64,000 nucleotides of DNA from assembly GCF_032854445.1 (NCBI RefSeq), contig NC_088295.1, forward strand, positions 58,261,249-58,325,248, read 5' to 3'. A model generated the notes under the pieces. It worked only from the letters and a program-made list of their open reading frames with translations, was not told where the DNA came from and made no database searches. This DNA comes from Liolophura sinensis (Eukaryota > Mollusca > Polyplacophora > Chitonida > Chitonidae). Position numbers and translations under genes: made by a program. Numbering within the stretch: the stretch's first letter is position 1; each line of letters opens with the position of its first letter. This document shows positions 2,878 through 64,000 of the stretch, piece by piece.

Positions 2878-2908
2878 ATGAAAGGTTTATTAGCGGTGTT
2901 TCCCAAAC
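2878..2908 (+). CDS. G1 exon 1, signal peptide start
   Basis: Reads MKGLLAVFPK and ends phase 1 at C|GTAAGT, as in the other copies. It lacks three codons present in the 40-nt exon 1 of G2, G3, G5 and G7. Confidence 0.65.
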
Positions 2909-2969
2909 GTAAGTATATTTTCTGTGTGAATGACTGTGTACATATTGTATATCTGTCTTCAAGTCTTTG

Positions 2970-3322
2970 AACCAGCCTTAATAGCACAGTTTGTGGAGCG
3001 ACCGCTTCGGGAGCGGTACATCCAGGACAATTCCTTGGTCGAGTCACACCTAAGACTTTAAAAGAGGTAGTTGTAACTTCCTCGCTTGGTGTTCAGCAAT
3101 GACTGGTTGACAAATATCAATATATTGTCTCGGGCGGGGCGCCATACTTGCTTTCGGTACGTCGTCTCAGTGAAGCAGCACTAGATAAAAGGTCGGTAGA
3201 AGTCCGTCCTGCAACAAAGGAGGCACATTACGTGCACTCTAAAGATCCCCTTGTCGTCTTATGACTGAAAACTTGTTGAGTACGATGTTAAACCCCCAAG
3301 CACTCACTCACTAACTCACTCA
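2970..3322 (+). repeat. SINE-like repeat, family 2
   Basis: Full-looking copy starting near the phrase 'GTGGAGCGACCGCTTCGGG' and ending in CACTCACTCACTAACTCACTC. It sits inside the first intron of the G1 pseudogene. Copies at 4736, 10506 and 56330 share the internal GGGCGGGG..CTTTCGGTA..GTCGTCTCAGTGAAGCAGC region. Confidence 0.75.
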
Positions 3323-3414
3323 ATTATTGGAATTGCTATACGTATTTATAAGTTTATGTTACAAGAATACATCGTATTTAACTAAAACTTTTGGTTTGTG
3401 ACCCTTGCTTTTAG

Positions 3415-3734
3415 TTTCATTTGTGTCCAATCTGACTATCACAGCGCCAGGAGATGTCGTGGCCGGTCGTCCAGACCGACAGGTGACACATCTGTTCTCA
3501 CCTGGACCTGGGATGCTGGTCAGACCTCATCCCGTATATACTCCTCCCGTGAGTGTACATCATCAATACAGCTATCATCACAATCACCAGCTGGGTTATC
3601 AGGGGGATGTCAACACGTCAACGGTACAGAGGTTTACACAGTGACGATACAGAACGTCACTGTAGACGCGGGCCGGGGAAGATGGATATGTCAGTATGGA
3701 CTCGGGAATGACAGTGTTACTCTGGATGTATAAG
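3415..3734 (+). pseudogene. G1 V-like exon, frameshifted
   Basis: The acceptor TTTTAG precedes TTTCATTTGTGTCC, then the diagnostic ITAPGDVVAGRP. The next 25 bases of other copies (encoding FTLQCKIT) are missing, with CCA at both breakpoints, so the frame shifts. The downstream frame resumes with the conserved SRIYSSREC, GGCQHVNG and GRWICQY. An in-frame TAA (3731-3733) replaces the CAA codon before the donor. Confidence 0.85.
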
Positions 3735-4735
3735 GTAGACCTATTTCAACATAATTAGTAAACATTACAGAAACGCCCCCTTCAACAACACCGGAGATAT
3801 CCCCAAGAATTAGACTTTTAAGTTTATTATCCCCGTCACGCATTCCGCACAATCCACGCGGATGTCACATTGCCGGCACGAGGACCACTTGTCGCAACTC
3901 TTATTAACATAAATTACGCCTGTAGTGAAATTATTGATTCAAACATCGCTGCACTTGTAACACTTATTGAAACTATTATTAAAATATGCATAGGGGGTGC
4001 ATTGTATATTTTAATATGTATAAGCGTCATGTCCGACATTCGTATACCATTCGTAGTTATTTCAATAAATGTTGCAGTGCCTTGGCAACCTTTGTTAAAA
4101 TACTATTTCAACATGTGTTACATCTGAAACTCTTACTGTAATATTTATTGCACACAAAGTGTCTAACTGAAATAATCATGACAAACTTAGGAATTGGCAC
4201 TGGCCAGAGAGACCCTGTGCATCACTATGTTGAACCGTCCTCATTGTTACGAAGTAAATGCTATTAGATTAGTATTTTCAAATTTATGTGCGTGTTTTCG
4301 AAACAAGGATTTCAGTGCATCGCAAAACATCATGACTATTGAAAAAGAAATAGCATGCTGCACAGTGGACGTGGAAAGTAGGCTACTGGGTTTGACTCTA
4401 GCACCTCATGGTGTAACTACGAACTGAAAGTAGTCCACAATTGAGCATGAATCTAGTTGTAAAACAATCCATTGTAATTTTGTAAATATTTAAGAGGGGT
4501 CAAAATCACCAGCGCAGCCCCTGCAGAGGCTATGAACTGAACCAGGAATACTCCGGCTGGGCATTTGCAGGTAGGTTTGGGTCGTTGGAGTTCCTTGTAA
4601 ATTATTTAGCAGGCCTCTGTATCAACAATTTAAGCAGTGAAAGAAATATTTTTCCATTGTGTCCAAGTTAAAAGAAACATTATTTGTCATTTGGGCCTTC
4701 ACCGCCGAAGTCCACAACTATCTTCGAGGCTATCT
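3735..4735. other. G1 intronic remnant, no exon seen
   Basis: The sequence directly after the V exon (ACATTACAGAAACGCCC...) is similar to the G5 intron near 42420, but none of the Ig2-Ig5 motifs is found. Confidence 0.45.
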
Positions 4736-5075
4736 ATAACACATTTCGAAGAGCGTCCGCTTCGGGACCGGTAGATCAAGGCTCATTCTGGGCCGAGTTA
4801 CACCTAAGACTTGAGAAGAGGTATTTGTAACTTCCTGCCTTGGCGTTCAGCATGAAGAGGATAATGCAACTACCATATCAATACATATCAATATCATGTC
4901 TCGGGCGGGGAGCCTTACTTACCTTCGGTAAGTCGTCTCAGTGAAGAAGAGCTAGATAAAAGAGCGCTGGAAGTCCGTCCTGCGACAAGGAGGCACATTA
5001 CATACACCCTAAGGATTCCTTTGTCGTCATATGACTGAAAAATTGTTGAGTACGACGTTAAACACGTAAAACAGA
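4736..5075 (+). repeat. SINE-like repeat, family 2
   Basis: Contains GAGCGTCCGCTTCGGGACCGG, GGGCCGAGTTACACCTAAGACTT, GGGCGGGG and GTCGTCTCAGTGAAG, and ends near GTACGACGTTAAACACG. It lacks the long CACTCA tail. Confidence 0.7.
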
Positions 5076-5317
5076 GGTTGCACCATGCAGTTGGCAATAT
5101 GCGATACATATAAACCTGGAAAATAATTTTAACCAATCGTAACTGACGTAATAAAAACCGGAAATTATTGTATCTCAGGTTGAGAATGATGCACTGGTAT
5201 ATCAATACGCGGAGAAATGTTTCTTTAAACATAGAATAAAGTTATAAAGCGCATTGGTCATCTCGAACCCCGTAAATGCTGCTTCACATTATTTTTTAAT
5301 TGTTTCCCTTATTTTAG

Positions 5318-5614
5318 AAAAGGTCTGTATCCAGCCGAGGTTATTCTTTTTCGGCCGTTATTCTGTAGCAACAACCAGGTTTCTATTATGTGGTTGTCTT
5401 ACACGGAGGTCTCTGTAGTGGAATTCTACAAACTGGAGTACAAAAGAACAGAGGAGGCTTGGAATGAAGAACTTGTGAGAAATCCGGGGTTGGGAAAAGT
5501 TGTGTAGCAAACCTTGAAAGATCTACAACCTGGAGTGTTATACCAGTTCAAACTTCAGCCTAGCTTGGACATAGTCATGCCAAAACCCCTTACAACAAAC
5601 TGTACCATTCAAGG
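5318..5614 (+). pseudogene. G1 FN3 exon relic
   Basis: Aligns by eye with the G2 and G4 FN3 exons: FYKLEYKRTEEAWNEELVRNPG, LKDLQPGVLYQFKLQP and TTNCTIQG. TAG at 5505-5507 replaces the CGG/GAG codon of the paralogues, and the donor is CAAG|GA instead of CAAG|GT. Confidence 0.8.
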
Positions 5615-5814
5615 AAGGACAAACTTTATCTTTATGGTGTCAACATATTTTGCACACAGATCGTACCAACAAGGGTTAGTGCGGAACACACTTTAAATTT
5701 ACTAATTAACAGAAAAATAATGAAGATAAATGACACTTTAATTGTGGATAGTTGTATTGAGTAAGCAGAGAAGTATGTTATGTGAACAACTGCCGTTAGC
5801 TTCTAAGTTTAGCT

Positions 5815-6430
5815 TGTCACTGTTTACATATGCTGAGTTCAGGGCCCGCTGTCTGCCTCTACCTTAGAATGTTCCAGAATACGCTCAGTTCGTGGCCAGT
5901 TTGTTTACGACAAGTGTTCGAGAATTTTCTTATTCTAGGAAATTTACACCAGTCTATATAAGACCTATGAAAGCAGGTCAAAGGGGGAGAAGGAGAATTA
6001 TTGAGAGTTTTGGATGCTTTCGCTGTGTGTTACTTTAGTAGGCCTTTTGTGCTGAATTTTGGTGTCTTTATAGCCTCTGGCTTTGTTATATCATATCTCC
6101 ACCGAGCACTTGTTCAGCCTGAACTTGTATATTTAATTTGTGCTCTTGTGTACACAGTGCTTATTAGTACACTGACCCTGTCTGTAGAATTTTGTGTATA
6201 TTTCGTCATACACTCAGTTACACTGTGGATTTTCCCTCTTTTGAATATTGCCTCTGTGCATTTTTAAGCATTGTGGAGTATATGCGTCCATTTGGACTGG
6301 ACATGTAAGTACTTTAGTATTTGTATAGATACTGCTATCCTTTCTTGTTAAACTTAAGTGCTTTAGTACCGGTATTTGTATAAGTCTTGTTATCTGTTCT
6401 TGTTAAACCTAATAAATTGTTGAAAAATAA
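5815..6430 (+). repeat. Possible solo LTR-like insertion
   Basis: This stretch between the G1 FN3 relic and tail exon has no counterpart in the other receptor copies. It has a TATA-like TATATAAGACC at about 5955-5965 and AATAAA near 6411, and begins near TGTCACTG. Boundaries and target-site duplication are not established. A hydrophobic open frame (about 6001-6267) lies inside but has no conserved motif. Confidence 0.25.
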
Positions 6431-6640
6431 AATCTGCTGGTTTTGGTTACTTTTTTGTGCGGCTAAACTGTCGTGTATTTCGAACAAACCATCTCTTTAT
6501 AATACAGACAGTTTGGGTCGGAACACTGTCTATACAAAATGTATTAAATTTAAACTAAATATCAAAATAGTGATTTCCTTGAGGTCTTTATTAATTTTTT
6601 TTACTAACGTGACATAATGACGACATTTTGTTTGTGACAG

Positions 6641-6676
6641 GTCACTATGAGGATCTGGACACCTCACCTAATCCAG
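6641..6676 (+). CDS. G1 tail exon with YEDL
   Basis: After TTTGTGACAG, reads (G)GHYEDLDTSPNP and ends phase 1 at CCAG|GTAAGA. This is the first half of the ITAM-like motif. It is undamaged although the gene body is decayed. Confidence 0.75.
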
Positions 6677-6819
6677 GTAAGATCCTTTCATTTGAAACTG
6701 TCTATATCCTTGTTCTACTTTGGTGTGGAATTATTAAATTGTCCCTGTATCTATTCGGAATAACTATGAATATTTTACAATATTCCAATTAAAGCATGGC
6801 ATTTATACAGAAGTAAATG

Positions 6820-7035
6820 ACCCAGAGCCTCTGGCCAATGCTGTCGCTTTGAGTCCGCTCAGATCATGTTGGCTTCTTCTCTGGCCCTACGTGGGAATGT
6901 TTGCCAGTAACCTGTGGATGGTCGTGGGTTTCCCCCCAGGCTCTGCCCGGTTTCTTCCCACCATAATTGGCTGCCGTCATACAAATGAAGTATTCTTCAG
7001 TATGGCGTGAAATACCAATTATGTAAATATATAAA
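6820..7035 (+). repeat. tRNA-derived SINE fragment, family 1
   Basis: Diverged copy in the last G1 intron: TACGTGGGAATGTTTGCCAG..GGATGGTCGTGGGTTTCC..CCCACCATAAT..GTATGGCGTGAAATACCAAT. A copy at the homologous position of the G5 last intron (51715-51885) shows that it predates the segmental duplication. Confidence 0.75.
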
Positions 7036-7059
7036 ATGTAATATTTTTTCATTCAGCAG

Positions 7060-7145
7060 GTCCACATTATGAGGAGCTCTCTGGAAGACCATCGTCATCC
7101 ACACCTGGTGAGAACAGGGTCTACGAAAATGCAACCGTGTTCTGA
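7060..7145 (+). CDS. G1 last exon: YEEL, YENA and C terminus
   Basis: Reads GPHYEELSGRPSSSTPG then ENRVYENATVF and TGA. The acceptor is a NAGNAG (CAGCAG at 7054-7059), so an extra Ala could be added to the linker between the two tyrosine motifs. Confidence 0.75.
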
Positions 7146-9669: not shown

Positions 9670-9709
9670 ATGAAAGGCCTATTAACGCTCTTTGTCATCT
9701 TGTGGCGAC
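9670..9709 (+). CDS. G2 exon 1, signal peptide
   Basis: MKGLLTLFVILWR followed by C|GTAAGT, phase 1. With the start of the next exon it gives a hydrophobic leader ending near SSQ. The upstream in-frame ATG at 9622 (MSWYVKHIRQTRPTEP) would weaken the leader, so 9670 is preferred. Confidence 0.8.
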
Positions 9710-12700
9710 GTAAGTATATCCTTTGCAGGAACAACCAAAACATAGTGGACTACATGTAAATTATTGCGTTTTAATAAATAATGCGTTGAAACATATGTTT
9801 AAAACGTCGTGAAATGTTGATAGCTTATATTTCTATTAGAACTCCTACGTTGAACTAAAACACTGGTTTATAATGCGTTTTATTTTAGTCCCATTTGCCT
9901 CCAGTCAGTCAGTCACAGCACCAGGAGATGTCGTGGCCGGTCGTCCATTTACCCTGCAGTGTAAGATAACCAGACAGACAGGTGACAGGTCTGCTTTGTT
10001 CTGGGATTACATCAATCAGACACTATCCCGTATATACTTCTCCCGTCAGTGTAACTCGTCAGTACCAGTATATCCGGATGCACCAGATGGAATATCAGGG
10101 GGATGTCAGAACATAAACGGTGAAGAGGTTTACACAGTGACGATAGAGAATGTCACGGAAGACATGGGCTGGGGCAGATGGTTATGTCAGTATGCAGGCA
10201 AGAGAGCCAGTGTTACTCTGGATGTTCAAGGTAACAGCATTTAACATAATTAGATTAAAACACCCCTGAAATGTCTAAACAAAAAGCAATTTGAAATTAT
10301 TTTTCCTCAACATTCAGCCACCTGTGTTTGACATCCATTATAATTTCTGCTTACGCCATCCAGTAGGGTTACAGCTATTAGAGCACACACAGATATTGAG
10401 AACTGTCACGCTGCTGCTTACCATATACCGTCGCCATAGCAGCTTTTTCAGTTTGGATATTATTTGAATTGATTGGTGTTTTACGCCGTATTCAAAACTA
10501 TTTCAGCGGCCCCGACTGCACAATTGGTAGATCGTCCGCATTGTGAGCGTTACATCCAGGGTAAATCCCGGGTAGGGTGCTACCTAATACTTAGGTAGTT
10601 ATAGTAGCTTCCTCGCTTAGCATTCAGCATTAAGGGAGCAGAGCAACGACCGGTTGACCCGTATCATGGTAATGGCTTGGGTCGGGCGGCCTACATGCCT
10701 CCGGTAATTCATCTCAGTGAAGCAGCACTAGATAAAAGAGTGATGGAAATCCATCCTGCAACAAGGAGGCACGTTACACGTATATGCACCCTAAGGAGCC
10801 CTTCGTCGTTATCTGACTGGAAAAATTGTTAAGTACGACGTTAAACCCCAAGCAGTCACTCACCCACTCACTAAAGAATATTTCACTTATGCGACTTTCC
10901 GGCGTTATGGTGGGTGGAAACTTTATATTATGCCGATACACTAAGAGAAAAAGTTTGGGACAATTGACTCAAAATCTCAATTATGCAAATAAGCTACTTT
11001 AGCTGAAAAAATCATCTGACCAAAACAGTGGAGTTATGTATACCTCAGATTTTTCAGTCATTTGATCCAAACTTTTCTTTTAGTGTACTGGAGGCCATGT
11101 CATGTGTTTGTCCAAGCTCAACTAAAGCGATAAAATATTTCATTTATCTGTATTTTTTAAAATAAAGAAAAATATATCAGAAGTGCCTCTGCAATTGCAA
11201 TAATGGTTTTTGAAGGTGACTTGATTATTGTGTTCAAAGCTTTTGCTTTATCTTGGCTTCATTTCAGTCATGGTGGCCAGTGTGACCTTGATGAACCCTC
11301 CAGGTGTGGTATTAGCCGGTGATCACTCCACCTTTACCTGTGTTACCTCGGCCAGTAAACCACAGGCCTGTATAAGAGCGTACATACGGAGTCCCGGTAA
11401 TGTCCGGGAGATAGACTTGGTAGACTGTAACGAGGACTCCAGCTCCGTACAGATCACTACCCGGACACTGATGTTTACAGCCAGAGCCGAGGAGAATGGA
11501 GCTGAGCTGTACTGTAACGCCTCCAACAGGGTGACGGATCCTCCTGTACGATCAGAAGTCTACACACTGAATGTACAACGTGAGTATGATGTCGTGACAG
11601 ACTATTTCGACTCTCGGGAAATATTTAATTATTTATGTATGTATCAATCTTTAGGATTAAATATCAAATTTTTAAATAAGACAGAAATAAGTATATAATT
11701 CCTTAATAACAGCAGGCGAAAAATGTAGAGAGAAAAGAAAGATATCCTTGTGATTGCCCGTAATCCGATAAAGGTTGACTGGTCTGCTCCAGGCCGTCCC
11801 GATTTTTCTCAGTGAGATTTGTTTACATGCGTTGTACTTTGTGTCGATTATCCACTATTCAGACTGACAACTTCATCATGTAGCATATGTATTTACAGCA
11901 CAGGAACGCCATGTCAAAGAAACCAAACACGGTGTCCTATACAGTTACAACATACTGATACAGTATGTTTGCTATAAATACAACAGTATTTGTAAACTTA
12001 GCACCTGTGGTTATTGAAAGTAGAAACTGGAAAAAAGACATCCATATCATCACAAAGGCCTGCAAAGTGCCTAACTGGCACGTAAGAAACTCTCCCACTT
12101 ACCTCACATTTATTAAAGGAAATCATAACTAATTTACTAGCATAGACCCATTTGGAATGTAAACGTTCAAAGTGATTTCAAAAAATGTTGGTGGTAATAT
12201 GTAATATCGTAATATGTTTTTTGAAACATACATACGAACTGAATGACGATTATTCTGTTGTCAGATCCTCCACGGAGTGGCGTCCTACTGTCAGGTTATA
12301 TTAGCAACACAGCTGTAGAATCTGGAGAAACACTGACCTTGACCTGTCAGGTGGGAAAGGGGAATCCCCGACCAGCACTCTCCTGGTCATCGGAGTGTGG
12401 ACAGACAAACACAGTTGACGGTAACGCTGGAAGTCAGCAGATCAGTATCAGTATAACTGTCAGTCCGTCCATGAACCAGAAGACGTGTGTGTGTAAGGGG
12501 AGTCAAAACGGGACGTTGTCAAGATGGACGGAGCAGAAAAGCAGAACATTCAATGTTTTATGTAAGGCTTTGGAGGCTAGAATATGCCACATATCTATAT
12601 ACTGACGCGAATTCCTTGCAATAAGTAGCGTCATTGTTCAGCGACTTGGACCCGAGTACAAGGTCATCCATGCGGTAATGTAAGGTCATGCTCTAAAACA

Positions 12701-15700
12701 TTCGTGCTGTGTTAACTTTTGATCTCTTTACACAATTAAACGGAATAAAACTTAAGAAGAAATTCTGTCATTTGTGATAACGATATTTGCTATTGTTAAT
12801 AATATTGAAGTGACGAACATTGACATGCCTACATTGGTCGGATGACATTCAATCGAAACTATAACCATTAAAATCAATCGAAGGTAGGAGCATCAAAGAA
12901 TTTTGCATTTTTGGTAGCGACTACTAGGATAAGAGAATTAATTTAATGATTGTAAAAGTTATTATTTTCCTTTCCATAAATATTAATTTGTATATTTCAT
13001 TGATATTTCACGTTGTACTCAAGAATATTTCACTTCTACAACGGAGGAAAACTAGACACAGAACGGATGAAACACATGACCAATCGCAGATTGCTGGCAG
13101 ACTATCCCGGAGAAGACGCCAGCATGAACTCACTGCGACCACATTGGTGAGAGGCTTCGCGTCATTGCGCCGCGTACGTGGGAAGGTATGCCGGAAACCT
13201 GCGGATGGTTGTGGGTTTTCTTCGGGCTCTGCCCGGTTTTCTCCCACCATAATGTTCCTAAATTAATAAATTAATAAATTAGTGCACCGCGGTGGCAACC
13301 AAGACCCCTTAGCCACTCAGACCCCGCTTTCCATAAGTAACCTCATGGATTTTTAATTGTACTGCCGTTAAACGTTCATTGACTTCCTGACCTACCGATG
13401 TTAACCAGCCTGTGTTCATTTCAGTCGGACCTGGCAGCATACAGCTCAGAGCAGACTCCGGACAATCAGGAAACACAGTCACCGTCAAAGAAAACAGCAC
13501 AGTGACATTTACATGTAACACTAGTGAGTCCAATCCTGCTGCCGTCCTATCCTGGTACAACAACAGCAGTCCTGTATCAGCAGGAGAGATATCAGAAGTG
13601 AGCTCGCAGCCAGGGTCCAATCACGGATACCTGACCACACAACAGTATACAGTGAGGGTTGATCGATATCAGGATGGTAATGTCATCAGATGTGAGGCTC
13701 AGAGACCTGGCAATGGAGGTAGTAAACGTGTATCTCCCAGTTTAACCCTGGATGTGATGTGTAAGTATGTTATTGTTTATTGTTTTCGCAGATATATATT
13801 GTCGTGTTGCAAAATATGAAAGCAAGACGAGAATACACATTTCTCTCTAGGCGTCGTTTAAGTTACAAATGATATCTGTTGTGGAATTTCTCTCTAAGCG
13901 TCGTTTAAGTTACAAATGATATCTGTTGTGGATGTAACGTTTAGTGAGATGAGTGCGATGGATGTTATCGTTGAAAAGGTAGTTTAGAAATAATATAATG
14001 TGCATGTGGAACGGATATTGTTTATGACTTTTTAACTTTTTATTTAAACAGATGCCCCAGAAATAACATGTAACACAACTCAAGTGACACTGTTCGAAGG
14101 TCAGAGACTAAAAATCTCATGTGACGTAATATCCAACGATGATGTCGTCATCCATTGGTATCAAAGTGGCCGTCGAATTGATAACGCTGTGACGACAAAC
14201 TCCCGAGGTCCTGCTCGACGTGACGTCACCATGTCGACAGTGGAGTTTGAGTCAGCCGAAGCGAGGATTTCCGGCGTGTATCAGATCGAGGCTACGAACA
14301 GTATTGGATCATCAACTAGGGAAATAACAATAAGTGTGACTGGTATAGTATTTTATTTGAAAATTTTGAATATGTGGCAAAAATAAATGTATTTATTCAG
14401 GGAGAGATCTGTTGTGCCATCTATGTGATAAACATGTCTTACAATTTCAGTCAGATGTCAGCGATCTGAAATGAAAAACTATTATCTTTTTTATTGATTA
14501 GACTTTTTTTTTTATTATTAGAGGGTCAGTTTATACCACAGGAGATAGAGGTGATATCCTGTGCTGACAACCAGGCCACTCTGATTTGGGCGTCTGGAAT
14601 TGATGACTCTCTGGTGGAATATTACAACTTGGAGTATAAAAGAAAACAGGGGGAATGGAAAGCAGAACTCGTCAGAAATCTAGGAAGAGTAAAACTTGTC
14701 CGGAAAACCCTGTCAGGTTTACAATCTGGAGTGTTGTACCATTTTAGACTTCAGCCTGTCTCAGACATCACCTTTTCACAATATGCTACAGCCAACTGCA
14801 CCGTTCAAGGTGAGTTTTATACATTGCACTTTGGCCCATTTGATGATAGCTATTGCTAGCCTCAGATGTGACGTTTTGGCTGTAATAATAATGTCAGTAA
14901 TACGTTTGCGGCATCTTTTTCTAAATAGCCAATATTGTGTTTGCAGCTGCACAGGCGATCCATGGACAGAAGGACGTTCATGAAGCCGGTGTCAGTAAAG
15001 GTGGTATGCTTGCCATAGGTGTTGTTATTGGTATTGCAGTCGTCACCATTATTGTTGTTTCCGTCACTTGCCGGCAGCTGCGAAAAACGCCATCAACAGG
15101 AAACAAAGGTTAGGTCTAACCGTTATGCATACCTCTCTATACAGTTATGTTAACGATTTATTATTTGTCTCTATTAAAAATGTACTTGTGTGTTACAATC
15201 TCTTATATTCAAGTCTGGTTAAAAACCACACCTGGTTATCCTTTTTCTAATGGTACAAAATGTGTGGTGTAAAATGGGAGAATAGCACATAACAGTAGCC
15301 TCTTGTTTTAATATGTCCGCACTTGTACGTCTTAAATTCCTCTGTTGCCTTTCTTGTTGTCAGAAGACACCTCAGACAAACAGGGTACAGGACAAGTCAT
15401 GAGGTACGTATTTAACACCATCTGTCTTCCAGCATTCTTTCATCACAAATGTCCTCTACTAAGATTATGATGTTCTCATCTGTAATTTTATCTGCAGTTT
15501 CGTGCAAGTTATTAATGCCGATGTGTTATGAACTAGGCATAAATCTTTAGAAATATACCCTTGTGGATAAAGGTAAATGACCTTGTTGAATGTTGTTACT
15601 TTGGCAGGATCATAGAAGACAGAGGTACAGAAGATAGAGTTGTGGAATATAGGGGTATAGAAGACACAGTTGTGGAAGATACGACTGACCTTGAACTTGT

Positions 15701-16499
15701 TTCACATGGTAAACTCAACATTATGTTTTCCGCACACAAGTATTTGGAACATTATGTAACAAAGAACTCAGTTCTTTGGGTAAAAGCATTTGGTGAATAT
15801 TACTTATTGTAAATGTTTAAACTGTGTTGGATTCAAACTTTCACAATGAATTGAAGTCAGATGTTCACTGATGGCTACTCTTCGCTTGTCACAGGTCACT
15901 ATGAGGATTTGGACACCACACCCAACCCAGGTAAGATATTTCTGATGAGCATCACCCAATATCCTTAATCTGATTTAAAATGACATTTTGAGTAAAATGT
16001 TTTGCGTACTTTTTAATTGCTTAGGTGAGATTAACAAAATAAGTAACATTTATTCTCCCTGATTCATATTACAGGTTGCTGTAAGCTATTTTAAGTGAAT
16101 CCTTGTTAGAAGAAGTGTTTCTCCGCTTTTACCATTCGCTGACTCGGCAGTTCTAGAACCACTGTCATAACATCAAAAATCTTTTCTTCTCGTAGTTGCT
16201 TTTCGTAAGCAAGACATTCTGATTTGTAACGTGATGTTGGAAAATGTCCATCGAAAAAATTGAATTGAAGCTCAATAGGTTGGTTATGTTCATACACAGT
16301 GTAACACGAAATAAATAAATGGAATAAACCTCATGCTTAATGTGGCGGACGGCGGGTGTAGGTATTTTGGTCATATTCTGTACGGACTTTTTACGTGTGT
16401 TTACAATCACCAGGACCACATTACGAGGAGCTCTCAGGAACAACGGCGTCATCCACACCTGGTGAGAACAGAGTCTACGAGAATGCAACCGTGTTATGA
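9670..16499 (+). CDS. G2: intact 5-Ig/FN3 transmembrane receptor
   Basis: Predicted 776-aa type I membrane receptor from 12 exons: 9670-9709, 9889-10230, 11268-11579, 12265-12561, 13425-13760, 14052-14342, 14522-14809, 14947-15108, 15364-15403, 15608-15708, 15895-15930, 16414-16499. All have consensus GT-AG sites and the summed length (2331 nt) is in frame. Order: signal peptide, V-like Ig (about 20-127; Cys38/113 plus extra Cys68/86), Ig2 (128-231), Ig3 (232-331), Ig4 (332-443), Ig5 (444-540), FN3 (541-636), TM (about 656-677), tail. The tail has ITIM-like VEYRGI (Tyr717), ITAM-like YEDL..YEEL (Tyr739, Tyr752), Y-E-N at Tyr770 and C-terminal TVL. An in-frame ATG at 9622 would add 16 residues. 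Likely function is ligand recognition and tyrosine-kinase signalling at the cell surface (inference). Database searches would probably return generic nephrin-, hemicentin- or CD22-like labels. Confidence 0.88.
9889..10230 (+). CDS. G2 V-like Ig exon
   Basis: Acceptor TATTTTAG, donor CAAG|GTAAC, phase 1-1. Encodes SVTAPGDVVAGRPFTLQC, SRIYFSRQC, GGCQNINGEEVYTVTIENVT and GRWLCQY. Four cysteines suggest the canonical disulphide plus a second one. It is the most divergent exon between copies. Confidence 0.9.
10506..10870 (+). repeat. SINE-like repeat, family 2
   Basis: In the V-Ig2 intron. Has the family core (CTCAGTGAAGCAGCACTAGATAAAAG) and the CAGTCACTCACCCACTCACT tail, followed at once by a family-1 SINE fragment (AAGAATATTTCACTT at 10874-10888). 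The G6 homologue lies at 56330-56655. Confidence 0.8.
11268..11579 (+). CDS. G2 Ig2 exon
   Basis: Phase 1-1. Encodes VTLMNPPGVVLAGD, STFTCVTSASKPQAC, AYIRSPGNVREID and AEENGAELYCNASN. Cys152/210 are the Ig pair; Cys162/181 probably form a second disulphide. Confidence 0.88.
11580..12264. other. G2 Ig2-Ig3 intron
   Basis: No repeat family or exon recognised in this 685-base intron. Confidence 0.5.
12265..12561 (+). CDS. G2 Ig3 exon
   Basis: Phase 1-1. Encodes PPRSGVLLSGYISNTAVESG, TLTLTCQVGKGNPRPALSW and KTCVCKGSQNG. C2-like Ig fold with additional cysteines (SECGQ, TCVC). It is intact only in G2 and G5. Confidence 0.88.
13009..13300. repeat. Composite SINE family 1 fragments
   Basis: Left part (13009-13150) is in reverse orientation (TACTCAAGAATATTTCACTT). 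Right part (13160-13300) is forward (GTGGGAAGGTATGCCGG..CTCCCACCATAATG). The same arrangement is at 56655-56940 in G6. Confidence 0.7.
13425..13760 (+). CDS. G2 Ig4 exon
   Basis: Phase 1-1. Encodes VGPGSIQLRADSGQSGNT, STVTFTCNTSESNPAAVLSW, YTVRVDRYQDGNVIRCEAQ. Typical C2/I-type Ig with several N-glycosylation sequons. Confidence 0.88.
14052..14342 (+). CDS. G2 Ig5 exon
   Basis: Phase 1-1. Encodes APEITCNTTQVTLFEGQRL, ISCDVISNDDVVIHWYQSGR and a membrane-proximal Ig end AEARISGVYQIEATNSIGSS. The second Ig cysteine position is Tyr (GVYQIEA), whereas G5 has Cys (GVCQIEA). Confidence 0.88.
14522..14809 (+). CDS. G2 FN3 exon
   Basis: Phase 1-1. Encodes EGQFIPQEIEVISC, QATLIWASGIDDSLVEYYNL, LSGLQSGVLYHFRLQPVSD and ANCTVQG, a fibronectin type III layout (W, L-E-Y, L-x-P-x-x-x-Y/F). 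It is the membrane-proximal domain. Confidence 0.88.
14947..15108 (+). CDS. G2 transmembrane exon
   Basis: Short stalk (GQKDVHEAGVSKGG), then the hydrophobic helix MLAIGVVIGIAVVTIIVVSV and a basic stop-transfer CRQLRK. No charged residue lies in the helix, unlike G3. Confidence 0.88.
15364..15403 (+). CDS. G2 cytoplasmic exon 1
   Basis: Reads EDTSDKQGTGQVMR, phase 1 to phase 2, acceptor TTGTCAG, donor AG|GTACGT. Conserved in G3-G6. Confidence 0.75.
15608..15708 (+). CDS. G2 cytoplasmic exon 2, ITIM-like repeat exon
   Basis: Five 5-residue units of type R-V-V-E-D then TTDLELVSHG. The third unit is RVVEY, so VEYRGI fits the ITIM consensus (S/I/V/L-x-Y-x-x-I/V/L). Phase 2 to phase 1. Confidence 0.8.
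15895..15930 (+). CDS. G2 cytoplasmic exon 3, YEDL
   Basis: (G)GHYEDLDTTPNP between CACAG and CCAG|GTAAGA, phase 1-1. First half of the ITAM-like motif. Confidence 0.85.
16414..16499 (+). CDS. G2 last exon, YEEL/YENA
   Basis: GPHYEELSGTTASSTPG then ENRVYENATVL and TGA. Completes YEDL-x9-YEEL. C-terminal T-V-L matches class I PDZ ligands. Confidence 0.85.
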
Positions 16500-20030: not shown

Positions 20031-20381
20031 TCTTGTCTGTCTCCTGTCAGTCAATCACAGCACCAGGTGATGTCGTGGCCGGTCGTCCGTTTACCCTGGA
20101 ATGTAAGATAACCAGACCGGCAGGTGACAGGAATAGTATGGTCTGGTTTAGTAGCTATAATCAGACGATATACCGAATATACTCAAGCCGTGAGTGTACA
20201 CCGTCAATACCACTATTACCATCACCATCATCGCCAGCTGGGTTATCAGGCAGTTGTCAGAACATCAACGGTGAGGAGGTTTACACATTGACAATAGAGA
20301 ACGTCACAGAAGACACGGGCCAGGTCAGATGGTTATGTCAGTATGCAGGCGGGAATGTCATTGTTACTCTGGATGTTCAAG
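20031..20381 (+). CDS. G3 V-like Ig exon
   Basis: Open throughout, phase 1-1, donor CAAG|GTAAA. Conserved APGDVVAGRPFTLEC, GSCQNINGEEVYTLTIENVT and RWLCQYAGG. The CDR1-like and C-C' region (NSMVWFSSYNQTIYRIY) differs strongly from other copies. Confidence 0.88.
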
Positions 20382-20415
20382 GTAAATGCATAGCATACGT
20401 TGTATTACGTTGTAT

Positions 20416-39806: not shown

Positions 39807-39808
39807 TA

Positions 39809-54799: not shown

Positions 54800-54887
54800 A
54801 TGAATTGGTGCGTCAAACACATCAGGCAAACGAGACCCACAGAACCAGTGAAAGGCCTATTAACGCTCTTTGTTATCTTGTGGCGAC
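54800..54887 (+). CDS. G6 exon 1, altered start
   Basis: Coding VKGLLTLFVILWR with GTG (54848-54850) where G2 has ATG. The upstream ATG at 54800 is in frame and also conserved in G2 (9622), so a longer leader is possible. Confidence 0.6.
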
Positions 54888-57800
54888 GTAAGTATATCCT
54901 TTGCAGTAAAAAGCAAAAGATCGTGGACTAAATGTCAATTATTACGTATTAACACATAATGCTAATAAACTACAATATCTGTTCAAAACGTGGAGGAATG
55001 TTTATACCTCATATTTTTTTTTATTAGAGGCCTGCGTTGAACTAAAACGCGAGTTTGTAATACGTTTTATTTTAGTCCCATTTGCTTCAAGTGTGTCAAT
55101 CACAGCACCAGGAGATGTCGTGGCCGGTCGTCCATTTACCCTGCAGTGTAAGATAACCAGATCGGCAGGTGACATGAATGGGACGGCCTGGTATCTGAAC
55201 AGATCCCGTATATACGCCACCCGTGTGTGTACATCATCAATACAGCTATCATCACAATCACCAGCCGGGTTGCCACGCGGATGCCAACTCGTCAACGGTG
55301 AAGAGGTTTACACAATCACGATACAGAACGTGACTGTAGACACGGGCCGGGGCAGATGGTTATGTTCCTATGCGGACATGAGTGCCAGTGTTAGTCTGGA
55401 TGTTCAAGGTAACGGTTGTATGTTCTGGGTCATAATAGAATGCATACTCCTTTCTGTTAAGGGGGTCTCCGTGGCTCAGTTGGTTAGCGCGATAGCGCAG
55501 CGTATTGACCCAGTAGTCTCTCACCAATGTGGTCACTGTGAGTTCAAGTCCAGCTCAAGCTGGCTTCCTCTCCGGCCGTACGTGGGAAGGTCCTGCAACA
55601 ACCTGCGGATGGTCGTGGGTTTCCCCAGGGCTGTGCCCGGTTTCCACCCACGACAATGCTGGACGCCGTCGTATAAGTGAAATATTCTTGAGTACGGCGT
55701 AAAACACCAACCAAATAAATAAATAAATAAATAAATACCTTTCTGTTAATGTCATTTTCTTTATTGCATGTATATAAATGACTCTTTGGTACATACAATT
55801 CTCTTGGCTTGGCACTACAGGCATACTCATGGGTGTGTAGGTGAGTGTGACTGACTGTAAGAAAAAATTTCTTTACACAAGTAATCAACATTAGGCTGTC
55901 ACATAACGTTTATATAAGCCCTTTAAATTGCTGTGAAACCTTTACTGCTTGTGGAAGTCGCCATTATCATGTCTTGCGCTTGCAGAGGCAAGGGAGACTA
56001 CAATGGTGTAAAGTGCAAGAGTTGTCTCCCTTGATCAGTACATAACTATGGTTAAAACATCATATCAGCCTTTAAGGGAGAAAGTAAAAAAATCATTCTA
56101 AAGATTTGACCATTACAACGGTATTTAACACAACATTCAGACACCTGAATATGACATTCATTCTAAATTCTCCTCATGCCAACCAGTAGGGTTACAACTT
56201 ACAGGGTACACACAAATATTGAGAACTGTCACGCTGCCGCTTACCTAAACCGTCGCCATAGAAGCTTTGTATAGTAGGATATGATTTTGATTTGATTGGT
56301 GTTTTACGCCGTTATCAAGAATAGTGGAGCGTCCGCTTTGTTAGCGGTAGATCCAGGGTCAATTCCCGGGTTTGGTCATACATAAGTTATAGCTCCTCTA
56401 TTGGCGCCAGTACTTACAGAAAAGAGCAACGACCGGATGACCCATTTCGGTACAATGGCTTGGGCGGGGTGGCTTACTTGCCTTCGGTAAGTCGTCTCAT
56501 TGAAGCATTACTAGATAAAAGAGCAGTAAAAATCCATCCTGCAGCAAGGAAACACAGTACACGTACATGCACTCTAGGGACTCCTTCATCGTCATGTGGC
56601 TGAAAAATTGTTAAGTATGACGTTAAACCCAAAGCACTTACTCACTCATTCACTCAGTTGTACTCAAGAATATTTCACTTCCACAACGGGGGGAAACTAG
56701 ACACAGAACGGATGAAACCCACCACCAATCGCAGATTGCTGGCAGACTTTCCCACGTGCTGCCGGAGAAGAAGCCAGCATGAACTCACACCGACCGCATT
56801 AGTGAGAGGCTTCGCGGTCATTGCGCTGCGTGCGTGGGAAGGTATGCCAAAAACCTGCAGATGGTCGTGGGTTTTCCCCGGGCTCTGCCCGATTTTCTCC
56901 CACCATAATTCTCCCAAACTAATAAATAAATAAATCAGTGTAACGCGCTGGCGCGCAAGCCCGCTTAGCCACGGAGACCCCGCTTTCTATAAGTAACGTC
57001 ATGGATTTTTAATCGTACTGCATTTACGTTATTAAACGTTCATTAACTTGCTCACCTACCGATGTTAACCAGCCTGTGTTCATTTCAGTCGGACCTGGCA
57101 GCATACAGCTCAGGGTAGACTCCGGACAATCGGAAAACACAGTTACCGTCAACGAAAACAGCACAGTGACATTTACATGTAATGCTAGCGAGTCCAGTCC
57201 TGTTTCCACCCTCTCCTGGTACAACAACAGCGGTCCTATAGCAGCAGCAGAGATATCAGAAGTGAGCTCACAGCGAAGTCCCAACCACGGATACCTGACC
57301 ACACAGCGATATACAGTGAGGGTTGATCGATATCAGGATGGTGATGTCATCAGATGTGAGGCTCAGAGACCTGGTAAAGGAAACAGTAAACGTGTATCTC
57401 CCAGTTTAATCCTGGATGTGCTGTGTAAGTATGTTATTGTTTATTGTTTTCGCAGATTTATTTTGACGTGTTGCAAAATATGAAAGCAAGACGAGAATAC
57501 ACATTTCCCTCTAGGCGTCGTTTAAGTTACAAATGATATCTGTTGTGGATGTAACGTTGAGTGAGATGAGTGTGATGGATGTTATCGTTGAAAAGGTAGT
57601 TTAGAAATAATATAATGTGCATGTGGAACGGATATTGTTTATGCCTTTTCTACTTTTTTTTTAAACAGATGCCCCAGAAATAACATGTAACACAACTCAC
57701 GTGACACTGTTCGAAGGTCAGAGACTAAAAATCTCATGTGACGTAACATCCAACGATGATGTCGTCATCCATTGGTATCAAAGTGGCCGTCGAATTGATA

Positions 57801-60106
57801 ACGCAGTGACGACAAACTCTCAAGGTCCAGCTCGGCGTGACGTTACCATGTCGACAGTGGAGTTTGAGTCAGCCGATGCGAAGATTTCCGGCGTGTATCA
57901 GATCGAAGCTACGAACAGTATTGGATCATCAACTAGGGAAATAACAATAAGTGTGATTAGTATAGTATTTTATTTGAAAATTTTGAATATGTGGCAAAAA
58001 TAAATGTATTTATTCAGGGAGTATTTTATTCTATGTGATAAACATGTCTTACAATTTCAGTCAGATGTCAGCGATCTGAAATGAAAAACCATTATCTTTT
58101 TTATTTATTAGACTTTTTTATTATTAGAGGGTCAGTTTATACCACAGGAGATAGAGATGATATCATGTGATGACAACCAGGCCACTCTGATCTGGGCGTC
58201 TGGGATTGATGACTCTCTGGTGGAATACTACAACTTGGAGTATAAAAGAACACAGGGTGAATGGAAAGGAGAACTCGTCAGAAATCTAGGAAGAGTAAAA
58301 CTTGTCCGGAAAACCGTGTCTGGTTTACAATCTGGAGTGTTGTACCATTTTAGACTTCAGCCTGTCTCAAACATCACCTTTTCACAATATGCTACAGCCA
58401 ACTGCACCGTTCAAGGTGAGATTTATACATTTTACTTCGGCCTATTTGATGATAGCTATTGTTAGCCTTAGATGTGACGTTTTGGCTGCAATAATAATGT
58501 CAGTAATACGTTTGCGGCATCTTTTTCTAAATAGCCAATATTGTGTTTGCAGCTTCACAGGCGATCCGTGGACAGAAGGACGTTCATGAAGCCGGCGTCA
58601 GTAAAGGTGGTATGCTTGCCATAGGTGTTGTTATTGGTATTGCAGTCGTCACCATTATTGTTGTTTCCGTCACTTGCCGGCAGCTGCGAAAAACGCCATC
58701 AACAGGAAACAAAGGTTAGGTCTTACCGTTATGCATACCTCTCTATACAGTTATGTTAACGATTTATTATTTGTCTCTATTAAAAATGTACTTGTGTGTT
58801 ACAATCTCTTATATTCAAGTCTGGTTAAAAACCACACCTGGTTATCCTTTTTCTAATGGTACAAAATGTGTGGTGTAAAATGGGAGAATAGCACATAACA
58901 GTAGCCTCTTGTTTTAATATGTCCGCACTTGTACGTCTTAAATTCCTCTGTTGCCTTTCTTGTTGTCAGAAGACACCTCAGACAAACAGGGTACAGGACA
59001 AGTCTTGAGGTACATATTTAACACCATCTGTCTTCCAGCATTCTTTCATCACAAATGTCCTCTACTAAGATTATGATGTTCTCGTTTGTAATTTTATCTG
59101 CAGTTTCGTGCAAGATATTAATGCCGATGTGTTATGAACTATGCATAAATCTTTAGGAATATACCCTTGTGGATACATGTAAATGACCTTGTTGAATGTT
59201 GTGACTTTGGCAGGGTCATAGAAGACAGCGGTATAGAAGACAGAGTTGTGGAATATAGGGGTATAGAAGACACAGTTGTGGAAGATACGACTGACCTTGA
59301 ACATGTTTCACATGGTAAACTCAACATTATGTTTTACGCACACAGATATTTGGAACATTATGTAACAAAGAACTCAATTCTTTGGGTAAAAGCATTTGGT
59401 GAATATTACTTATTGTAAATGTTTAAACTGTGTTGGATTCAAACTTTCACAATGAATTGAAGTCAGATGTTCACTGATGGCGAATCTTCGCTTGTCACAG
59501 GTCACTATGAGGATCTGGACACCACACCCAACCCAGGTAAGATATTTCTGATGAGCATCACCCAATATCTTTAATCTGATTGAATATGACATTTTGAGTA
59601 AAAGGTTTTGCGTACTTTTTAATAGGTGAGATTAACAAAATTAGTAACATTTATTCTCTCTGATTCATATTACAGGTTATTATAAGCTATTTTAAGTGAA
59701 TCCTTGTTAGAAGAAGTGTTTCTCCGCTTTTACCATTCGCTGACTTGGCAGTTCTAGAACCACTGTCATAACATCAAAAATCTTTTCTTCTCGTAGTTGC
59801 TTTTCGTAAGCCAGACATTCTGATTTGTAACGTGATGTTGGAAAATGTCCATCGAAAAAATTCAATTGAGTTGAAAAGCTCAATGGGTTGTTTATGTTCA
59901 TACACAGTGTAACACGAAATAAATAAATGGAATAAACCTCATGCTTAATGTGGCGTACGGCGGGTGTAAGTATTTTGATCATATTCTGTACGGACTTTTA
60001 CGTGTGTTTACAATCACCAGGACCACATTACGAGGAGCTCTCAGGAACAACGGCGTCATCCACACCTGGTGAGAACAGAGTCTACGAGAATGCAACCGTG
60101 TTATGA
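54800..60106 (+). CDS. G6: short 3-Ig/FN3 receptor lacking Ig2 and Ig3
   Basis: Exons: 54800-54887 (or from 54848), V 55076-55408, Ig4 57089-57424, Ig5 57669-57959, FN3 58128-58415, TM 58553-58714, tail 58970-59009, 59214-59314, 59501-59536, 60021-60106. The usual start ATG is GTG at 54848. An in-frame ATG at 54800 (MNWCVKHIRQTRPTEP..) would give a 586-aa product. From position 54848 the length would be 570 aa. Ig2 and Ig3 are absent because the genomic segment is deleted, and phase 1-1 exons keep the frame. The tail keeps VEYRGI, YEDL, YEEL, Y-E-N and TVL. It is the closest relative of G2; FN3-to-tail introns are almost identical. Whether the altered start still yields a functional leader is unknown. 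Confidence 0.83.
55076..55408 (+). CDS. G6 V-like Ig exon
   Basis: VSITAPGDVVAGRPFTLQC, MNGTAWYLNRSRIYATRVC, RGCQLVNGEEVYTITIQNVT, GRWLCSYADMS. The CDR1-like loop is three residues shorter than in G2. Confidence 0.9.
55461..55738 (+). repeat. tRNA-derived SINE, family 1, full length
   Basis: Best complete copy: GTCTCCGTGGCTCAGTTGG (box A), GTGAGTTCAAGTCC (box B), CGGATGGTCGTGGGTTTCC core, GAAATATTCTTGAGTACGGC, tail (AAATA)n. Confidence 0.93.
56330..56655 (+). repeat. SINE-like repeat, family 2
   Basis: GTGGAGCGTCCGCTTTG.. GGGTCAATTCCCGGG.. GTCGTCTCATTGAAGCA.. CACTTACTCACTCATTCACTC. Homologue of 10506-10870 in G2. Confidence 0.8.
56655..56940. repeat. Composite SINE family 1 fragments at deletion junction
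   Basis: Same composite as 13009-13300 in G2 but directly abutting the family 2 SINE. Marks the breakpoint of the Ig2-Ig3 deletion. Confidence 0.75.
57089..57424 (+). CDS. G6 Ig4 exon
   Basis: VGPGSIQLRVDSGQSENT, STVTFTCNASESSPVSTLSW, YTVRVDRYQDGDVIRCEAQ. Phase 1-1. Confidence 0.88.
57669..57959 (+). CDS. G6 Ig5 exon
   Basis: APEITCNTTHVTLFEGQRLK, VVIHWYQSGRRIDNAVTT, ADAKISGVYQIEATNSIG. The last exon base is A (A|GTATAG) instead of G, a slightly weaker donor. Confidence 0.87.
58128..58415 (+). CDS. G6 FN3 exon
   Basis: GQFIPQEIEMISCDDNQATL, WASGIDDSLVEYYNLEYKR, LQSGVLYHFRLQPVSN, ANCTVQG. Confidence 0.88.
58553..58714 (+). CDS. G6 transmembrane exon
   Basis: ASQAIRGQKDVHEAGVSKGG then MLAIGVVIGIAVVTIIVVSV and TCRQLRKT. 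Nearly identical to G2. Confidence 0.88.
58970..59009 (+). CDS. G6 cytoplasmic exon 1
   Basis: EDTSDKQGTGQVLR, phase 1 to 2. Confidence 0.75.
59214..59314 (+). CDS. G6 cytoplasmic exon 2, ITIM-like
   Basis: RVIEDSGIEDRVVEYRGIED then TVVEDTTDLEHVSHG. Contains VEYRGI. Confidence 0.8.
59501..59536 (+). CDS. G6 cytoplasmic exon 3, YEDL
   Basis: GHYEDLDTTPNP, phase 1-1. Confidence 0.85.
60021..60106 (+). CDS. G6 last exon, YEEL/YENA
   Basis: GPHYEELSGTTASSTPG then ENRVYENATVL and TGA; identical in protein to G2. Confidence 0.85.
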
Positions 60107-61400: not shown

Positions 61401-61953
61401 TTTAAAGAGGAAAATTTTTAAAATGGCACTATAAGCGGAAAAGAACACATTTTTTTCACTTGTTGTGCCTGCTGCATAATATTGCGATTATTCCTCGCCA
61501 TTCACGTAAAGCCTGAAAACGGCAAAGCTCGCATAAATCGCTAAGTCCATCAAGCACACTGATGTTAAATTCTTTAAAACCCTGTAATTCGTTAAAACTG
61601 CCGGCTTGTTCGTGTACACTCGGAACCTACATTCTAGATTCCGATTTTCCCGATCGTCAAGCGGAAATCACCGAAGCAACGCGAAGCACAGGCGGTTGGC
61701 AGGTCATTTTCTACCGGAAATGAACGAACTGCACTTCGGCGGTTTCGGACGGAAATTCTCCTCCTTAGACAGAAGACTTCAGGACTAGCTCTTACGCAAA
61801 ATAGAGTTGCCCACAGGGGATTTTGGCGCTGACTTTTTTTTATAATTTATCAACTTGAGGTACATATTAGAATTTTTATGGCATGCACGTGCATGGAAAT
61901 GCATACTCTTTTGGGTATTTGTTTGATATTTTTGAATTTCCTTCTCCTTTAAA
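61401..61953. mobile_element. MITE-like insertion flanked by TTTAAA
   Basis: Absent from the homologous site near 18709. Both ends carry TTTAAA (61401-61406 and 61948-61953). The termini are imperfect inverted repeats (TTTAAAGAGGAAAATTTTTA versus TTTAAAGGAGAAGGAAATTC on the other strand). No transposase is encoded in about 550 bp. Confidence 0.6.
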
Positions 61954-62026
61954 GAAAGACCGAGGAGTAGCACTTGTAATGTTTTCGTAAAGTTCTGAAC
62001 TTTATGGACTTTGGCTCTGTTCCTGA

Positions 62027-62240
62027 TATCAATATAGAACATATCAATACAGAACATATAAATATAGAACATATCAATACAGAGCATATAAATATGGAGC
62101 ATATGAATATAGAACATATCAATAGAGAGCATATCAGTATAGAACATATGACTATAAAACATCAATAGAGAGCAAATCAAATGTATACAACATAGCAATA
62201 TAGTGCTTATCAATGTGGAACTTATCAATACAACGACTAC
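62027..62240. repeat. 15-bp minisatellite, short array
   Basis: About 13 units of CATATCAATATAGAA type before G7, at the position homologous to the long array before G4 and the one-to-two-unit stub before G3. Confidence 0.85.
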
Positions 62241-63439
62241 TTTTATAAACTACTTCATGACCTCTGTAACCCTTGAACATGTCGCACCTTAACACGCATC
62301 CTCTGTACTTGCACATGTACCTCAAACCTGTCTGACTCATTCACATACTGCTATGGACACTAAAATGGTTTTAAAGCAGCGCTTTACGTTGGTCTGTAGC
62401 GATCCAGAGATCATCAGTGGCGTCATATCCATCAGTTGTACTTGAAATAGTTTGTTTCAAGGTTCATGCGGTGAATGCGTAGATGTAATCATGTAGTCCT
62501 TGTGTTTAGTTGCCAGAAACCTGATGTGACGCCACTAGCCCCAATATGAGCAGAAAGGTTCACCGTATAATCCAGTTTTACAAGTTTTCCAGGCATTCAC
62601 GCTAATTTAATAAAATTCTATTACATAATTCACACTGTTTTGGTGGGCAGTGTTTAAAGGCCTTTCATCTGGCATATTCCTCACGTTAGTGTTTTCTTGC
62701 CTTTAAACATTCTCTTTTTGACGTAAGTCATTGTTGAATTGTAAGACGAGCTGCGAGATCACTGACAAACTGGTGTTCAAAGAGTAACCATACGCGAGAG
62801 GATCAACCTACCTACATGTATACATGATGGGCAAAGAGCAGAAAATGGAAAGAAAAGAATATCTGGAGAATGTATTCTTATAAACATCACAGGTCTAGAA
62901 TTACTCAAAAAGGCTCATGTTAACATGTAAAACAAACAAAGAGTTTTTGTTGTCAACTGGGTTGACATTAGGCTCATTTTAAATGAAAAGTGAAATGTGA
63001 AAACTTGGCAAGAATATGCGTTAAATTATCACAGTGATGTATTCAACTTAATTTGCGACGGTTAGACAATCTGGCGTCTATGTCCCTATAGTGTTTAAAT
63101 ATAACTGTATATACTTGTATATGTAATTGATTTTTGTGTCATTTATGTTTTAGACATTACCGAAAAATATCGTTCACGGGTAAAACAAGCAAAGAGTGTC
63201 AGTTTACTGGAGTTATCTTTAGCCAATAATCGGTATTTTTACTTCCGGATTGACAATGTTATACCTTGGATTTTTGAGTATTTAGACTGTGTCGAGGTTT
63301 CACGGGCTACAGTAGGCCGTTTGCTTTTCAACACTTAAATTGCCTCATACAATATACTGTAGCTGAACCTGGAACAGCTTGCACAGATGCACTAAGCATA
63401 CGTCTTACATGTAACTGGCACAAGAGACGAGCAGAAATA
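62241..63439. other. G7 upstream region
   Basis: Parallels 18830-19805. Contains a local insertion (about 63010-63180) not seen before G3. No TATA-like element as clear as that of G3. Confidence 0.5.
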
Positions 63440-64000
63440 ATGAAAGACCTATTTACGGCACTTCTCAGCTTGTGGCAAAGTAAGTACAGATTTACACAAC
63501 AAAACCTGAGTGTAAACTACTTGAAATGTACATTGTATGGTTTTTATTATCAATTTCGGTTGCATAAGCAACTGGATATTTAACTAAAACACAGGCTTGT
63601 TGACGTCCTTGTTTCAGTTTTGTCTGTCTTCAGTCAGTCAATCAAAGCACCAGGAGATGTCGTGGCCGGTCGTCCTTTTACCCTGGAGTGTAAGATAACC
63701 AGACCGACAGGTGACCTATTACCTCTCATATGGTACCATGATGCTGATAATGTCATATCCCGTATATATGCCACCCCTAAGTGTAGCCCATCAATACAGC
63801 TATCACTAGTTGGGTTATTCGGGGGATGTCAAAACGTCAGCGGTGGAGAGGTTTACACAGTAACGATAGAGAACGTCACGGAAAACACGGCCCGGGGCAG
63901 GTGGGGATGTCAGTATGGAAGCAGGGAGAACAATGTTACACTGGATATTAAAGGCAAGTGCAAATACTCAATTGAAAGAATTTTTAAAAGTTTTATTATA
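63440..64000 (+). CDS. G7: Ig receptor, 5' part only
   Basis: Exon 1 63440-63479 (MKDLFTALLSLWQ) and V-like exon 63618-63953 (ILSVFSQSIKAPGDVVAGRP, LIWYHDADNVISRIYATPKC, FGGCQNVSGGEVYTVTIENV, RWGCQYGS), both open and joined in frame. The donor after the V exon is AAAG|GCAAGT, a GC donor with an otherwise strong consensus. The gene continues beyond the window, so domain content and integrity are unknown. The closest relative by leader is G3. Confidence 0.82.
63618..63953 (+). CDS. G7 V-like Ig exon with GC donor
   Basis: Phase 1-1 with four conserved cysteines. CDR1-like loop LLPLIWYHDADNVIS is unique among copies, and a short deletion occurs in the SIQLS..GLFGGC loop. Confidence 0.85.

Follow-up and report, generated by a model that had tools for sequence, protein, structure and literature searches.

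What kind of gene family occupies the window, the 64,000-nucleotide stretch of a molluscan genome analyzed here (positions 58,261,249-58,325,248 of the 96-Mb contig C1), in which seven head-to-tail genes for membrane receptors with immunoglobulin (Ig) and FN3 domains extend from position 2878 to 64000? The answer advanced, with moderate confidence, is that the genes belong to a birth-and-death family of germline-diversified, single-chain recognition receptors of the immunoreceptor tyrosine-based activation motif (ITAM) type in a haemocyanin-bearing mollusc. Directly established are the gene structure, the fold of the N-terminal variable-type (V) domain, faster amino acid change in this domain, distinct histories of the V exons, and three conserved tyrosine boxes in the tail. 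The genome was searched as one haploid assembly of 609 Mb, in which a single gene, located on contig C8, encodes eight haemocyanin units of molluscan type; its product matches gastropod and cephalopod haemocyanins. Of these two groups a gastropod is the more probable host, as the cephalopod genomes sequenced to date are much larger.

Organization of the receptor array

The exons of the second and fifth genes, G2 and G5, were used as tblastn queries and matched V, Ig2-Ig5, FN3, and transmembrane (TM) exons across seven units, mostly with E-values of 1e-20 to 1e-72. The features are listed in window coordinates, with T1, T1b, T2, and T3 denoting the exons of the tail.

2878-7145, + strand: G1, decayed, with frameshift, stop, and missing-exon evidence
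2878-2908, + strand: G1 signal exon
3435-3736, + strand: G1 V fragment, with frameshift and stop
5364-5615, + strand: G1 FN3, with a stop and the donor lost
6641-6676 and 7062-7145, + strand: G1 tail exons T2 and T3, T3 still open
9670-16499, + strand: G2, intact, 12 exons, 776 amino acids (signal, V, Ig2-Ig5, FN3, TM, T1, T1b, T2, T3)
9889-10230, + strand: G2 V exon, phase 1-1
11268-11579, 12265-12561, 13425-13760, 14052-14342, and 14522-14809, + strand: G2 Ig2, Ig3, Ig4, Ig5, and FN3
14947-15108, + strand: G2 TM exon
15364-16499, + strand: G2 tail, T1 15364-15403, T1b 15608-15708, T2 15895-15930 (YEDL), T3 16414-16499 (YEEL, YENATVL)
20051-25472, + strand: G3, decayed, V and Ig2 intact, TM present
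30154-36474, + strand: G4, decayed, Ig5, FN3, TM, and tail open
41195-51989, + strand: G5, intact, 12 exons, 763 amino acids
41195-41234, 41966-42310, 43978-44289, 44803-45099, 45610-45945, 46140-46430, and 46644-46931, + strand: G5 signal, V, Ig2, Ig3, Ig4, Ig5, and FN3
42979-43305, + strand: second V exon of G5, with an in-frame stop, outside the G5 model
47290-47442, 47702-47741, 48327-48391, 51520-51555, and 51901-51989, + strand: G5 TM, T1, T1b, T2, and T3
54800-60106, + strand: G6, short form without Ig2 and Ig3
55076-55408, 57089-57424, 57669-57959, and 58128-58415, + strand: G6 V, Ig4, Ig5, and FN3
58553-58714, 58970-59009, 59214-59314, 59501-59536, and 60021-60106, + strand: G6 TM, T1, T1b, T2, and T3
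63618-63953 (entry 63618-64000), + strand: G7 V exon, with a GC donor, the rest of the gene lying beyond the window end

Once spliced, G2 and G5 each read through from the ATG to the stop codon without interruption; AG/GT splice sites border all junctions and the phases are consistent throughout. Both models describe type I membrane proteins with an Ig ectodomain and one TM segment. A Pfam scan of the two complete proteins matched Ig and fn3, together with a marginal PKD match only. The ectodomain exons of both models are all phase 1-1 and entire domains can therefore be removed or inserted with the frame unbroken. As the TM segment of G2 was found by inspection to carry no charged residues, signaling would need no partner chain.

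Damage in the remaining copies is varied. G1 has no Ig2-Ig5. G3 has a second partial V at 20443-20648, a truncated Ig3, stops in Ig4 and Ig5, and no FN3, and cysteine replaces the ITAM tyrosine in its T3. G4 has deletions in V, truncated Ig2 and Ig3, and a broken Ig4. G7 runs past the window to approximately the window-equivalent position 71,300, with V, Ig2, Ig4, Ig5, FN3, TM, and tail open and a dead Ig3 in which the acceptor is lost and a stop is present. In G6, GTG at 54848 occupies the site of the G2 start ATG. Death of the gene through loss of the start codon was considered and dropped as an in-frame ATG lies upstream at 54800 with an open reading frame; G6 thus was not counted as dead. 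A first-pass annotation of the window had described seven paralogues of which G2 and G5 were full length, G1, G3, and G4 decayed, and G7 cut by the window end, and the gene models bear out each of these assignments. It also had termed G6 a short form: the absence of Ig2 and Ig3 and the frame open from 54800 agree with this description, and a functional short form is possible and not proven from the gene model.

The array of the window forms the left edge of a ~340-kb cluster (C1:58.26-58.60 Mb) with ~18 gene units plus fragments on both strands, and whole-genome matches numbered 56 for the V exon, 33 for FN3, and 45 for Ig2. Class I genes are organized as V-Ig2-Ig3-Ig4-Ig5-FN3-TM-tail, and class II genes, at 58.37 and 58.44-58.47 Mb, as V-V-Ig2-Ig5-FN3-TM-tail; open exons occur in a number of genes between 58.44 and 58.60 Mb. 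At C1:58517311-58596513 (L045-L052) a head-to-head pair of class I type occurs in three repeats spaced ~30.5 kb apart, the last gene lacking Ig3 and Ig4. The two V exons of a pair are separated by ~3 kb, and the upstream region that they have in common could be a two-way promoter. In a further unit, G8 (L032, C1:58336036-58342948), five V exons come after the signal exon, each in a 1.085-kb unit, the units being ~95% identical; the next 8 kb downstream contain no receptor exons. Sibling families at 60.5-62.8 Mb and on unplaced contigs have the same V, Ig2, and Ig4 exons joined to different 3′ parts; in one of these (C1:62806036-62817220, L053 and L054), which has the same V and Ig2, a cassette of Ig4 plus an I-set domain is repeated three times. 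Haplotype or assembly duplication was ruled out as a source of the array, an assembly artefact having been named at the outset as a possibility: the closest other DNA matches are 92-93% identical and lie inside the same cluster, and with no copy elsewhere above 93% identity the array is not a haplotype artefact.

Additional V, Ig2, and Ig4 exons were noted on the unplaced contigs C18, C32, C43, C62, C93, C162, C172, and C186, and may represent an alternative haplotype or unplaced paralogues; C18 has seven V exons on one strand at distances of ~75-110 kb. Between the receptor genes of the window are a Tc1/mariner-like transposase gene (38475-39656, - strand) that is split by a frameshift and matches Pfam HTH_Tnp_Tc3_2 and DDE_3, and AT-rich tandem arrays of a similar 15-bp unit at 27527-28465 (62.7 copies) and 62026-62230 (13.6 copies).

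The variable domain and the tyrosine-motif tail

The fold of the N-terminal domain was assessed with an AlphaFold model of the G2 V region (9909-10232; pLDDT 80). The model superposes on antibody and T-cell receptor V domains (best VIA Z 10.0 over 94 residues), with a root-mean-square deviation of 2.5-2.6 Å to antibody V domains. The modeled structure places the N-terminal domain among Ig folds of the V type. The domain gave no curated Pfam V-set match, V-set appearing at E 0.14 in one member only, and a search for sequence relatives in the PDB returned weak V-domain hits only. The V-set profile was set aside as uninformative and structure comparison was used in its place.

Sequence evolution was measured as the ratio of nonsynonymous to synonymous substitution (dN/dS) by pooled NG86, using 21 V exons at this locus for the V set and a column bootstrap for the range. 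The value for V was 0.65 (0.51-0.82), compared with 0.33 for Ig2, 0.31 for Ig3, 0.40 for Ig4, 0.37 for Ig5, and 0.29 for FN3, i.e., approximately twice that of the other ectodomain parts (0.29-0.40). Within V, the BC, CC′, and FG loops together gave 1.23 and the framework 0.41, but the loop limits were set after the variable columns of the alignment had been viewed, which biases the loop-level values upward, and the domain-level contrast thus is the safer result.

The V exons also differ from the rest of their genes in divergence. G2 and G6 are 96% identical in nucleotide sequence over Ig5 and FN3 and 77% over V, and a pair at 58.52/58.55 Mb shows 95% in FN3 and 75% in V; in both pairs the synonymous divergence (dS) of V is ~3-fold that of FN3. 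G4 and G7 are 94% identical from Ig5 to the tail, but around V, with the introns counted, the figure falls to 72%. A higher dS in V is not what selection by itself would produce, and the mismatch between V and the stalk therefore fits either exchange or replacement of the 5′ part or homogenization of the 3′ part. On these sequence comparisons the V exons have their own history, separate from that of the stalk. The variable ectodomain and birth-and-death clustering that the first-pass annotation had proposed are both supported by the elevated V dN/dS, the separate V histories, and the presence of decayed copies among intact ones in ~18 units on both strands. An 18-codon remnant of the V 3′ end (WLCQHRLKSANVNLDVQG) is located ~30 nucleotides past the V exon in G5 (window 42342-42395) and in each V unit of L032, and possibly is an alternative FG-loop end or a relic.

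The tail is encoded by four exons, T1 (40 nucleotides, phase 1 to 2), T1b (phase 2 to 1), T2 (36 nucleotides), and T3. T1 is exactly 40 nucleotides in G2-G7 with conserved splice sites, and T3 is found in all seven window copies. Two readings of T1, a conserved element that does not code and a switch exon that breaks the frame, were rejected on the discovery of T1b, as T1 and T1b together restore the frame in G2, G5, and G6. The T1b region is an in-frame coding minisatellite of 15/30 nucleotides (window 15615-15681, 59221-59287, and 24415-24647), which is expanded to ~15 copies in the decayed G3 (24415-24647).

T2 carries YEDL, and T3 carries YExL and YENATV-hydrophobic-stop. In the 15 tails at C1:58.26-58.60 Mb, to which the counts refer (tails of sibling families being outside their scope), the first box, YE[DE]L, and the YEN box each are kept in 15 of 15, the second YExL in 14 (cysteine in the decayed G3), and both YxxL boxes therefore in 14. 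The C-terminus is T-V-hydrophobic or S-A-L in 13 tails and D-V-M in two. The YxxL boxes are spaced by 9 residues, as in G2 (YEDL-x9-YExL), except in G5, where the spacing is 10; in these genes and across the 14 copies the Yxx[LI] pair falls within the broad ITAM definition of 6-12. No immunoreceptor tyrosine-based inhibition motif (ITIM) of the type [SIVL]xYxx[ILV], and no inhibitory partner bearing one, was found by inspection of the same tails. The V-like domain and the four-exon tail with ITAM-like and other tyrosine motifs, which had been recognized from the letters alone, accordingly are upheld.

A proposed mechanism and its rivals

The locus probably is a germline recognition-receptor cluster, judged from the sequence evidence. 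The predicted protein plan consists of a cleaved signal, a V tip (two V domains in class II), a stalk of two to four further Ig domains, a single FN3, a TM segment, and the tail. The BC, CC′, and FG loops, which differ between copies, would bind variable ligands of microbial, parasite, or allogeneic origin; binding would cluster the receptors and lead Src-type kinases to phosphorylate YEDL-x9/10-YExL, and the phosphorylated pair would dock a Syk-type tandem-SH2 kinase. A GRB2-type adaptor recruited by the YEN box would lead toward ERK, and the T-V-hydrophobic end may anchor the receptor via a PDZ protein scaffold. New specificities would arise by tandem duplication, by duplication and exchange of V exons, and by decay of old copies, and haemocytes are the most likely site of expression. 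All steps past the V fold and the conserved boxes are modeled on established ITAM, GRB2, and PDZ biology, and the role of the array in immunity or self-recognition is putative. A more specific version is tentative: a protostome immune or allorecognition complex in which antibody-like V exons are duplicated and exchanged between genes with a constant stalk and ITAM tail. Such single-chain V-ITAM receptors would constitute a cassette system in the germline, and the head-to-head pairs would supply co-expressed partners.

Several observations weigh against the recognition-receptor interpretation, in addition to the upward bias of the loop values described above. Clearly intact copies in the window are two of seven, and dN/dS of the whole V domain does not exceed 1. 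The box spacing of 9 or 10 lies outside the strict ITAM spacing of 6-8. An exon-wise Pfam-family search of the genome did not resolve a Syk-type tandem-SH2 kinase, SH2 and tyrosine-kinase exons being present. Furthermore, the oyster receptor CgIgIT2, which is considered below, is called an activator in a review, yet is titled an inhibitory receptor in one of the references of that review (PMC11999971).

The state of the array could suggest a mostly decaying relic with one or two working genes, in which diversity reflects relaxed constraint: G1, G3, and G4 are broken, Ig3 of G7 is lost, and G8 is a V run with no downstream gene within 8 kb. However, dN/dS of 0.29-0.41 in all non-loop parts indicates that constraint persists, exons are open in G2, G5, and several genes at 58.44-58.60 Mb, and the tail boxes persist, which leaves the relic scarcely probable. 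Another alternative is a clustered family for cell adhesion or neural recognition, comparable to Dscam, Beat/Side, or nephrin. In such a family V would adhere homophilically or to a partner, and the tyrosines and PDZ end of the tail would serve to organize junctions and not immune signals. Adhesion receptors too have an Ig-Ig-Ig-FN3-TM arrangement with a C-terminal PDZ-type end, invertebrate families of the Ig superfamily act in nervous and immune systems alike (PMC11999971), and the adhesion protein CADM3 was among the weak V-profile hits. Nevertheless, the paired YxxL boxes are kept in nearly all copies, otherwise decayed ones included, and loop-focused V variation and high turnover with pseudogenes are unusual for developmental adhesion genes, so that adhesion is considered unlikely. 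The cluster layout, the V-type tip with variable loops, and the tyrosine tail would equally suit an allorecognition or gamete-recognition complex whose V loops read self or mate alleles, as in Hydractinia Alr, but colonial fusion is not known in haemocyanin-bearing molluscs and this explanation is rated very unlikely.

Most known examples of clustered, diversifying receptors that have an antibody-like variable tip and an ITAM tail on a single chain come from vertebrates. If the recognition-receptor interpretation is correct, the molluscan cluster would be a testable candidate for the recognition of many targets by antibody-less protostomes and would allow the origin of ITAM-based immunity to be studied by comparison. 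The size of the locus suits long-read haplotype comparison. No paper describing this receptor family was found in the open-access literature, which is not proof of absence.

Comparison with known receptor systems

The first-pass annotation had likened the array to the Hydractinia Alr and vertebrate leukocyte receptor complexes, a comparison that is sound as an analogy of layout, whereas nearer analogues occur within molluscs. The Alr cluster of Hydractinia comprises 41 genes with V-set and I-set domains (PMC11999971), and at both loci single-pass receptors whose Ig domains are V-set-like and I-set are encoded in a large cluster. Compared by layout, they differ in phylum and in the FN3 domain present here, and self-recognition has been demonstrated for Alr only. 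The vertebrate leukocyte receptor complex, CEACAM, and Fc receptor clusters likewise are birth-and-death clusters of Ig receptors with ITAM-type signaling and pseudogenes; they are an independent lineage, and in the molluscan genes the ligand-binding domain and ITAM always are in one chain, with no ITIM partner in the 15 tails read.

Gastropod FREP and VIgL defence proteins also have variable Ig domains, but the receptors here are membrane-anchored and not secreted, have no lectin domain, and have a V domain with antibody-like loops. The fibrinogen, C-type lectin, or galectin domain that follows Ig in the VIgL/FREP definition was absent from the Pfam scan of G2 and G5. In Biomphalaria, hyperdiverse clusters (PTC1/PTC2, LG16/LG5) of single-pass membrane genes with Ig, FN3, and C-type lectin domains are proposed pathogen receptors in the passage that describes them (PMC10875847). 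As portrayed there, these clusters share with the present locus the clustering of single-pass receptors, the combination of Ig and FN3, and a fast-evolving extracellular part. Many of the snail genes have C-type lectin or TMEM154 domains, neither of which Pfam finds here, and whereas the PTC/LG16 red class is defined by at least three of C-type lectin, FN3, Ig, and TMEM154 (PMC10875847), the molluscan receptors described here have Ig and FN3 only. The ITAM-like tail is present here and is not mentioned in that passage.

Among the Ig-ITAM haemocyte receptors of the oyster Crassostrea gigas, CgIgIT2 and its relatives (PMC11999971 and its references 93-95), CgIgIT2 has five Ig domains, a TM segment, and an ITAM, is expressed in haemolymph and haemocytes, and acts via ERK (PMC11999971). 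In common with the receptors of the window it is molluscan, has a multi-Ig ectodomain (five Ig in both) and one TM segment, and carries the ITAM in its own tail; compared by description, only the receptors here have FN3 before the TM segment, a V tip that evolves fast, duplicated V exons within a large tandem cluster, and YEN with a PDZ-type C-terminus. By these analogies CgIgIT2 and the snail clusters are nearer to the array than are Alr or the leukocyte receptor complex. The present locus stands apart in combining four features: the antibody-like tip evolves fast, the chain that bears it also has the ITAM-like tail, V exons are duplicated, and the genes form a large cluster on both strands.

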